25,093 bases of DNA, taken from positions 8,650-33,742 of the IMG/VR virus record IMGVR_UViG_3300030098_003853. One strand, written 5' to 3'. The notes beneath the pieces are model-generated. The model searched no databases. It saw only the letters and a program-made list of their open reading frames with translations, and was not told the DNA's origin. This stretch comes from a virus. Below, piece after piece: positions 11,727 to 24,585 of the stretch. Each line of letters starts with the position of its first letter. Positions within the stretch are counted from its first letter, which is position 1. Both the position numbers and the translations under genes were made by a program.

Positions 11727-11740
11727 GCACTCATTATTTT

Positions 11741-11780
11741 AAAAGAGGGTGGAGCATAATCTCCACTCTCTTTTATTTTT
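11741..11780 (+). terminator. Intrinsic terminator after the capsid gene
   Basis: A 14-base stem (11741-11754 with 11761-11774) has one G.U pair (AAAAGAGGGTGGAG against CTCCACTCTCTTTT). The loop is CATAAT, and a T-rich tract follows. Because the stem starts with A4 and ends with T4, it could also stop transcription on the other strand. It lies 14 bases after the capsid stop codon. Confidence 0.9.
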
Positions 11781-12670: not shown

Positions 12671-12689
12671 TAATCTTTTAAACTAGTAG

Positions 12690-12720
12690 AAATAGCCACC
12701 CGAAAGGAGTGGCTATTTTT
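12690..12720 (+). terminator. Intrinsic terminator with GNRA-capped stem
   Basis: AAATAGCCAC (12690-12699) pairs perfectly with GTGGCTATTT (12709-12718). The top can extend by two C-G pairs closing a GAAA tetraloop (12702-12705) with one bulged A at 12708, and a T run follows. It ends the transcript of the gene at 11804 and lies directly before the promoter-like element at 12748. Confidence 0.9.
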
Positions 12721-12747
12721 ATTTAAATGCTAACCTTTTGCTTTAAT

Positions 12748-12768
12748 ATGTAACTATAATAAAGTAAA
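12748..12768 (+). promoter_or_regulatory. Putative phage late promoter, copy 1 (21-base repeat)
   Basis: These 21 bases are identical to 24085-24105. The core is GTAACTATAATAAAGTAAA and contains TATAAT at 12755-12760. The element lies between a terminator and the first gene of the neck/tail module, 12 bases before its ATG. The bases upstream of the two copies differ and no shared -35 hexamer is visible, as in T4 late promoters, which have only a TATAAATA-type box. A short leader of about 10-13 bases would result. A promoter is the simplest reading; an RNA-level element is possible. Confidence 0.65.
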
Positions 12769-12780
12769 ATATATTATAAT

Positions 12781-12945
12781 ATGGAACGATCAAAAGGATT
12801 AGGAGATTCAATAGAAAAAATAACAAAGGCAACTGGATTAAAATCATTAACTGAAATAGCTTCAAGAGCAGTCGGTTTCAAGGATTGTGGATGCGACAAA
12901 AGAAAACAATGGTTAAATAATCAATTTCCTTATAAGTATAAATAA
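12781..12945 (+). CDS. 54-residue CxC microprotein of the phage neck module
   Basis: This short gene fills the gap between the promoter-like element and the next gene. The ATG is 12 bases after the element, and the TAA at 12943-12945 is two bases before the next ATG. The product begins MERSKGLGDSIEKITKATGL, an amphipathic helix, and ends with KDCGCDKRKQWLNNQFPYKY. The Cys-x-Cys, Arg, Leu-Asn, Phe-Pro-Tyr pattern (C36, C38, R41, L45-N46, F49-P50-Y51) is one I recall from many small phage proteins encoded among structural genes. That makes this a real gene rather than a random frame. Two cysteines could bind metal if the protein dimerises. Function is unknown; position suggests a head-completion or assembly factor. 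Confidence 0.7.
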   Translation: MERSKGLGDSIEKITKATGLKSLTEIASRAVGFKDCGCDKRKQWLNNQFPYKYK

Positions 12946-23555: not shown

Positions 23556-24074
23556 ATGGCTTCATTATCATTAGGTTTTACGGGAAGTATAAATAACTCT
23601 TTACAAGTTGGAGATTTTGTGTTTTATGTAAATGTAGCAGTTGTACAGGGAGTACAAAATACTGACGCCTCTTTTACAAGTAATACCAATACAACGAACG
23701 CTGCTGGTAATCAGGCTACACCTGTACTTATTGGGGAGGTACTTGATATTCAAACCAACCCTATCGATTCAAATGCTAACAGCGGTACATTGAGTGATTT
23801 TTATGATCCAACAACTAGTTTAACAACACTTGGTATTACCCCAGATTTTATTGTTACTATTACTCAAGTAGCAAATTGGCCAGCTGATGCTAACCAACTA
23901 CTAGCTAATAATGGGGTTTGTGATGATGGAGATTTTATATTATTTGCTAAAAATAATAAATATAATAAATCTTCTTTAAAAGGATATTACGCTCAAGCAA
24001 CGTTTTCAAATAACTCAGCTGAAAAAGCTGAACTATTCGCCGCAACTTGTGGTGTAGAAGAAAGTAGTAAATAA
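23556..24074 (+). CDS. Small virion-associated protein of marine-phage type
   Basis: This is a 172-residue beta-rich protein with Asn/Thr-rich loops. Its start, MASLSLGFTGSINNSLQVGD (1-20), and its end, SLKGYYAQATFSNNSAEKAE plus ELFAATCGVEESSK, are the two parts I recall as conserved in a family of short marine-phage proteins. The middle (about 30-75) is a low-complexity TNTN-type stretch. Only two cysteines are seen (near 121 and 166). There are six bases between the previous stop and this ATG, with an A/T-only leader. It is the last gene before the second promoter-like element. Tail location is inferred from neighbours; function unknown. Confidence 0.6.
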   Translation: MASLSLGFTGSINNSLQVGDFVFYVNVAVVQGVQNTDASFTSNTNTTNAAGNQATPVLIGEVLDIQTNPIDSNANSGTLSDFYDPTTSLTTLGITPDFIVTITQVANWPADANQLLANNGVCDDGDFILFAKNNKYNKSSLKGYYAQATFSNNSAEKAELFAATCGVEESSK

Positions 24075-24084
24075 ACGGTAAAAA

Positions 24085-24105
24085 ATGTAACTATAATAAA
24101 GTAAA
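24085..24105 (+). promoter_or_regulatory. Putative phage late promoter, copy 2 (21-base repeat)
   Basis: Exact copy of 12748-12768, lying between the stop at 24074 and the ATG at 24115, with TATAAT at 24092-24097. The distance from the end of the element to the ATG is 9 bases, against 12 in the first copy. It would drive the ejection/internal-virion module. No terminator precedes this copy, so read-through from upstream can add to its output. Confidence 0.65.
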
Positions 24106-24114
24106 TTAATAACT

Positions 24115-24585
24115 ATGGCGAAAAAAAGAGGATTTAAAATGAAAGGATTCGAACCTTACACTGGGGCTTCACCTATGAAGTGGGATTGGGGTAAGGCGTT
24201 AGATAGAGTTCAAACTGGATTAACAGCTGCTGGTATGGTACCCGGTCTTGGTAATTTAGCGGATATGGCTAATGTTGCTGTATCTGGAGGTAGAGCTGCT
24301 CACGCGAAACTAACTGGAGATACTGAAGCTGCTAAAAGATTTGCTAAAGAAGGAGCTATAAACGCTGCTGCGGCAGTACCTGGAGCAGGGTTAGCTGTTG
24401 GTGGTGCTAAGTTAGCTTCTAAAGGAGTTCAGAAAGGTGCTGAAGTTTTGAAGACGGGTAGTAAAGTAGCTAAGAAAGTTAAAAAAGTTAAAAAAGGAAA
24501 AGAGGTTGCAAAAGATGTTAAGAAGGAAATTGAAGATCCAAATAGAGCAAAAACATCAAATTTAGGAGGATACGGTAAAGCGTAA
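24115..24585 (+). CDS. Ala/Gly-rich, Lys-tailed protein with pre-toxin-like segment, candidate ejection protein
   Basis: This is a 156-residue basic protein. After a short basic head, residues 32-105 form an Ala/Gly-rich helical pair. MVPGLGNLADMANVAVSGGR (41-60) is followed by LTGDTEAAKRFAKEGAINAA (66-85) and VPGAGLAVGGAKLASKG (88-104). The plan 'hPGhGxhADxAN...GDxxxA...A..hPGhG...K' is what precedes toxin domains in polymorphic toxins (PT-TG-like pre-toxin). Residues 115-140 are nearly all Lys, Val and Ala. No toxin domain follows. A membrane-active protein packed with or ejected with the DNA would fit both the composition and the gene order, directly before a Gln-rich internal virion protein. 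This is inference; alternatively it is a DNA-binding packing protein. Confidence 0.5.
   Translation: MAKKRGFKMKGFEPYTGASPMKWDWGKALDRVQTGLTAAGMVPGLGNLADMANVAVSGGRAAHAKLTGDTEAAKRFAKEGAINAAAAVPGAGLAVGGAKLASKGVQKGAEVLKTGSKVAKKVKKVKKGKEVAKDVKKEIEDPNRAKTSNLGGYGKA

Follow-up and report, generated by a model that had tools for sequence, protein, structure and literature searches.

The window, by which we mean the whole 25,093-nt stretch of viral DNA analysed here, contains two perfect copies of a 21-base element in gaps between genes, which raises the question of whether the element is a promoter and, if so, what reads it. The two copies described in an earlier note are real: the window holds exactly two occurrences of the core GTAACTATAATAAAGTAAA, each on the structural-gene strand and each an exact 19-base match (12750-12768 and 24087-24105), and shuffled windows (n = 100) hold 0.09 copies on average, with two copies in 0/100. 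Both 21-mers are intergenic, 12 bases separating the first from the ATG at 12781 and 9 bases separating the second from the ATG at 24115. The first is preceded by a terminator and followed by a 54-aa ORF, with which the neck genes begin, and the second is flanked by a 172-aa gene on its 5' side and the first ejection-type gene on its 3' side. The same note saw no third copy, which holds for the window, where neither strand has a further 19-base core with up to 3 mismatches, and the whole 33.7-kb virus record has no exact core beyond these two; a divergent two-box copy nevertheless stands where the late gene block begins, outside the window (G000:2370-2397). Of the seven exact 19-mers in IMG/VR, the one in L086 was set aside as a chance match, as its surroundings are unrelated and lack the upstream box described below. 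The features of the neck-gene site (J1) and the ejection-gene site (J2) are as follows.

12688..12726, + strand: intrinsic terminator (-18.9 kcal/mol; stem, then TTTTTATTTAA) ending the head-gene unit, directly 5' of the putative promoter
12729..12734, + strand: -35-like box GCTAAC of J1, a fixed 15 bases before GTAAC
12735..12751, + strand: 17-bp spacer of J1 (two-box scan), its last three bases being the TGT (12749-12751) that belongs to the extended -10
12752..12757, + strand: -10-like hexamer AACTAT of J1 (consensus RAYTAT; sequence, alignment), A-11 and T-7 invariant
12764, + strand: predicted transcription start of J1, a G 7 nt after T-7 with a 17-nt leader (from sigma70 geometry)
12748..12768, + strand: 21-mer of the earlier note, spanning the extended -10, the predicted start site and the beginning of an A-rich leader
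12781..12945, + strand: 54-aa ORF (ORF call) opening the neck/tail unit; roughly half of the relatives have a homolog
24066..24071, + strand: -35-like box AGTAAA of J2, sharing bases with the final codons of the 172-aa gene and kept in L016 and L058
24086..24094, + strand: extended -10 of J2, TGT-AACTAT (sequence comparison, two-box scan)
24101, + strand: predicted transcription start of J2, a G with a 14-nt leader to the ATG at 24115 (from geometry)
24085..24105, + strand: second copy of the 21-mer (exact match)
24115..24585, + strand: 156-aa gene (ORF call), first of the proposed ejection unit

In terms of architecture, comparison with relatives indicates that the 21-mer forms the right-hand portion of a putative two-box promoter with the consensus NSTAAM, 17 bp, TGT-RAYTAT, which resembles a -35 box and an extended -10 of the sigma70 type. 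The pattern STAAM-N15-GTRAYTAT has 55 matches in 21 clade contigs, a few of which lie inside genes and are probably due to chance, whereas each of the other spacers from 8 to 25 gives 0-5 matches, the reversed sequence gives 5, and relatives that lack the sigma gene introduced below give none. The separation of 17 bp falls within the 16-18 bp of sigma70-type hexamers, and A-11 and T-7, the two bases that sigma flips out, are conserved with TGn upstream in the aligned consensus of all four junction classes (J0-J3, below). Among 28 distinct J1 sites, the CTAA of the -35-like box is invariant and the next C is kept in 27, and the predicted start is a G in 24. The absence of a common -35 box, as stated in the earlier note, is thus incorrect: GCTAAC and AGTAAA stand at an identical distance from the 21-mer, and the box was overlooked because the two copies differ there. 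The related statement that the upstream sequence is not shared also needs correction: these 5-6 bases, exactly 15 bases before GTAAC at both sites, make the sharing partial. Boxes 1 and 2 look alike (GTAAA and GTRAY); a generic scan of IMG/VR with GTAAA-N15-GTAACTATA was too unspecific and was discarded. The element is very probably a promoter.

The location of one copy directly behind a terminator was also confirmed by the hairpin and T-run at 12688-12726, and the same hairpin is found in L084, L085, L087, L089, and L090. We gathered 80 relatives with the second neck protein as query. In contigs of the clade, the element recurs at four junctions: the start of the late operon (J0), the neck genes (J1), the ejection genes (J2), and the region behind a sigma-factor gene (J3). 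The J0 site sits in a divergent control region and faces the late genes; in the window's own record it is the divergent copy at G000:2370. At J1, CTAACCTTnCnCTTTATTATGTAACTATAnTATAGTAAAATA is kept in most relatives even though the first neck protein is only ~35-57% identical, and more generally the J1 and J2 sites are conserved beside proteins that are mostly 26-60% identical. A good part of the relatives have no copy at J1; members without the J1 promoter (L044, L045, L047, L053, L069-L071, and L076) mostly have a GC-rich hairpin without a T-run (CTGTAGAGCGGTCGCCCTACGGGGCGATCGTAACTAC) instead, and in these the promoter and the terminator seem to have been lost together. J2 is kept more widely, even in a subclade devoid of J1, with the relaxed core GTRAYTATA, and almost always lies 12 bases past a stop codon that has AGTAGTAAATAA in front of it. 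The ORF ends earlier in L016 and L058, yet GTAAATAA-N12 is kept there, and the upstream box is therefore constrained in its own right.

The J3 site lies immediately 3' of the sigma gene and 5' of genes for an ERF annealing protein, an exonuclease, and a primase-helicase. The motif is found at most 110 nt past the sigma stop codon in 70 of 75 loci, compared with 44 of 3750 random stretches (1.2%) from the same contigs, and its spacer is one base longer in 15 of 69 sites behind sigma; the automatic sorting into J0 and J3 is rough, and class counts from that scan are approximate. A profile built from J1 and J2 sites only independently detects the J3 site behind sigma in seven contigs, and the 11 of 43 sigma contigs with no match to this profile at E<=0.01 are more distant members. 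A common, strand-specific, intergenic element thus precedes middle and late gene units at J0-J3. The earlier expectation that the same junctions would carry it in relatives was borne out at J1 and J2, a phage-specific promoter of late genes is supported, and the proposed division of these genes into head, neck/tail, and ejection units is likewise supported. The designation "late promoter" fits the late units but is too narrow, as the element also precedes the replication and recombination genes behind the sigma gene.

The protein encoded at J3 (~251 aa, phrog_351) contains sigma70 regions 2 and 4, with matches to PF04542 and PF04545 above cut-off and sequence matches to sigma chains in the PDB; its predicted structure, a model of moderate confidence, matches bacterial sigmaA folds by Foldseek. 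One example is encoded at 63415-64170 of contig IMGVR_UViG_3300030104_005504. The gene is present in the clade contigs that extend into its locus (G001, G003, G004, G005, G006, G008, and G012); other clade contigs appear to end short of it, judging from J0 sites or early-class sites (below) near the contig end. The 33.7-kb fragment to which the window belongs has no sigma gene. In an alignment to bacterial sigma, Gln437 and Thr440 of E. coli sigma70, the residues that read position -12, correspond to the invariant Gly106 and Arg109 of the phage protein, a substitution that would fit a purine rather than T at -12. The gene directly 5' of sigma in G001 (62349-62969), and likewise in G008, specifies a 206-aa protein whose C-terminus has an HTH; this protein is possibly a co-regulator or another candidate reader. 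When bacterial genomes were searched for a host, close matches to the phage sigma were found only in one 'Aliivibrio' MAG (Ust_30). The matching sequences (L237, L238, and L239) are sigma-bearing phage contigs, each with a site behind sigma, and are likely misbinned.

Cultured relatives outside the clade offer a comparison at the J1 junction. The window virus is akin to Cellulophaga phi38:1 and the Flavobacterium elemo podophages in its terminase, portal, capsid, and neck genes; its late gene block also encodes a phage GroEL (521 aa) and GroES (85 aa; L003:5773-7582, G000), which are present in elemo and MW202828 too. The complete genomes of phi38:1, elemoA, MW202828, and Panino were found to contain neither a sigma gene nor the motif. 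At their J1 junction, mostly also behind a terminator, all four have TATATTTG or TATCTTTG, which is the -7 box of the Bacteroidota primary promoter (-33 TTTG / -7 TAnnTTTG; PMC6847099). With the Bacteroidota consensus, stretches from the four sigma-less relatives have 31 host boxes upstream of genes (control, 4), and eight window-clade contigs together have 3 (control, 6). The -7 box TAHHTTTG is absent at both window sites, and its occurrence 5' of genes in the window clade, 0-1 per genome, does not exceed the control. The terminase of MW202828, which lacks the motif, is 64% identical to the window's, and clade members are at 70% or more; the promoter switch therefore falls between them.

The reading that best accommodates these results, and probably the correct one, is a phage-sigma-dependent class of middle and late promoters, a regulon of known kind but new. 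Such a promoter would have NSTAAM as its -35 box and TGT-RAYTAT as its extended -10 box, with 17 bp between the hexamers, and transcription would start at a purine ~7 bases on. Host RNA polymerase carrying the ~251-residue phage sigma would read these sites, and it is likely, from the adjacency and co-occurrence of gene and site, that this sigma is indeed the reader. Of the two readers envisaged in the earlier note, a sigma-like factor is accordingly the favoured one and a phage polymerase, for which no candidate was found in relatives, is unlikely. Sigma would be made early and then turn on at least four promoters, namely those of the replication and recombination genes behind its own gene, of the late-operon start, of the neck/tail genes, and of the ejection genes. 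The neck/tail promoter would act after the terminator that closes the head unit, and the window's own genome would carry the sigma gene in its missing part.

The strongest competing explanation, though an improbable one, treats the two boxes as a tandem direct repeat of GTAAM, 20 bp apart, that is bound by a phage activator such as the 206-aa HTH protein, with host polymerase starting at a weak -10 further to the right (TATAG/TATAGTAAAA). The likeness of the boxes, their nearly rigid spacing, a right-hand TATAG element that shifts by -1 to +3, and the position of the HTH gene (a weak HTH_11 match, below cut-off) before sigma are consistent with it. However, TGn, A-11/T-7, and a 17-bp spacer constitute exactly the sigma70 geometry, the longer spacer at some sites behind sigma is a variation that sigma promoters tolerate, and box 1 is variable (CTAAC, GTAAA), the extended TG being a feature of box 2.

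The early strand, including that of G001, G003, G004, and G012, has an element of a different kind, ACAAAnTAAATACGA-N9-GATAATAT, with 63 matches at spacer 9 and 0-7 at others. It occurs ~4-13 times per genome and is unlike the host boxes; to the left of the window it is found at the following positions.

G000:987-, 1684-, 2130-, 2216-: early-class sites

Among 30 of the contigs returned by a search of IMG/VR with this element alone, mostly with at least 2 copies, 26 carry the window's terminase family and 3 further ones encode the sigma; the early element thus marks the same clade. In G004 (3571+) and G012 (47519+), an early-class match lies ~550 bases before sigma, apparently within the HTH gene, and may be sigma's own promoter. 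Within the window, a strong terminator follows the capsid gene (11740-11775) with no promoter of either class behind it. An early small protein (L003:1166-1438(-)) and the C-terminus of a 2942-aa giant late-strand protein of G001 carry Cys/His-rich repeats that resemble each other and have C-x-HH or C-x-AH at their ends. It is conceivable, if somewhat doubtful, that the clade has abandoned host promoters entirely for two private alphabets, an early one read by a virion-delivered factor or an unrecognised host sigma and a middle/late one read by its own sigma.

The early class bears on another, distinctly unlikely, explanation, in which the window element is served by the ordinary sigma of a host whose promoters differ from TAnnTTTG and the phage sigma serves something else. 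The early sites are likewise without host boxes, as this explanation would have it, yet two unlike promoter classes coexist in these phage genomes, nearly all loci have the site behind the phage sigma gene, and the relatives infect Flavobacteriia and use TAnnTTTG. In addition, only 4 of 65 genes have a Shine-Dalgarno sequence, which fits Bacteroidota; together with the relatives, this scarcity points to a Bacteroidota host.

A promoter for a single-subunit polymerase of the T7/SP6 type is very improbable: its sole support is that TGnnACTATA resembles the SP6/T7 consensus, whereas such promoters have no -35 box at 17 bp, no PF00940 match was found in 21 contigs (in a search in which no positive control scored), and the giant proteins match no RNAP family. 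A virion RNA polymerase in the giant proteins of relatives was rejected as well, as they have neither a DFDGD-type catalytic motif nor a Pfam or PHROG RNAP match. Least probable is an RNA or N4-type hairpin element (ACTAT-NNN-ATAGT), for although a 5-bp stem is possible in many relatives, it is broken in the window's own copies, shows no covariation, reaches a score equalled by 71 of 500 shuffles, and leaves the upstream box unexplained; the N4 vRNAP promoter, with a conserved 5-7 bp stem and a 3-nt loop, was rejected on the broken stem in many members and the same absence of covariation.

No publication on the promoters of these phages, or on their sigma factors, was found in a literature search, and the two classes provide a readable early and middle/late regulatory map for an abundant uncultured marine viral clade. 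The Bacteroidota primary promoter is represented by a host-type box at the neck junction of sigma-less relatives but differs from the window element in box sequence and geometry and is absent 5' of window-clade genes. In Crassvirales, a virion polymerase transcribes early genes and host polymerase transcribes late genes (PMC10136315). The window clade resembles them in its early, middle, and late gene blocks and in a weak muzzle-domain match in relatives (a 2708-aa tail protein, L039:10875-18998, which matches the C-terminal domain of the Crassvirus muzzle below cut-off), but no virion RNA polymerase was found, and a phage sigma with dedicated promoters would serve instead. The early class in turn raises the question of how the first genes are transcribed without host boxes or a recognisable phage polymerase. 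Compared with the window clade, phi38:1, elemo, MW202828, and Maribacter Panino have homologous terminase, portal, and neck genes and a promoter at J1, but lack the sigma gene and use host-type boxes; homologous viruses thus differ in sigma, and the promoter at a homologous junction differs along with it, a natural comparison. T4 gp55 with TATAAATA, and gp28 and gp33/34 of SPO1, define phage late sigma regulons, in which, as proposed here, a phage sigma diverts host polymerase to a distinct middle or late consensus. T4 late promoters have a -10 box only and require the clamp; the window clade differs from T4 and SPO1 in having a two-box promoter, with a -35 and an extended -10, and a full sigma with regions 2 and 4.
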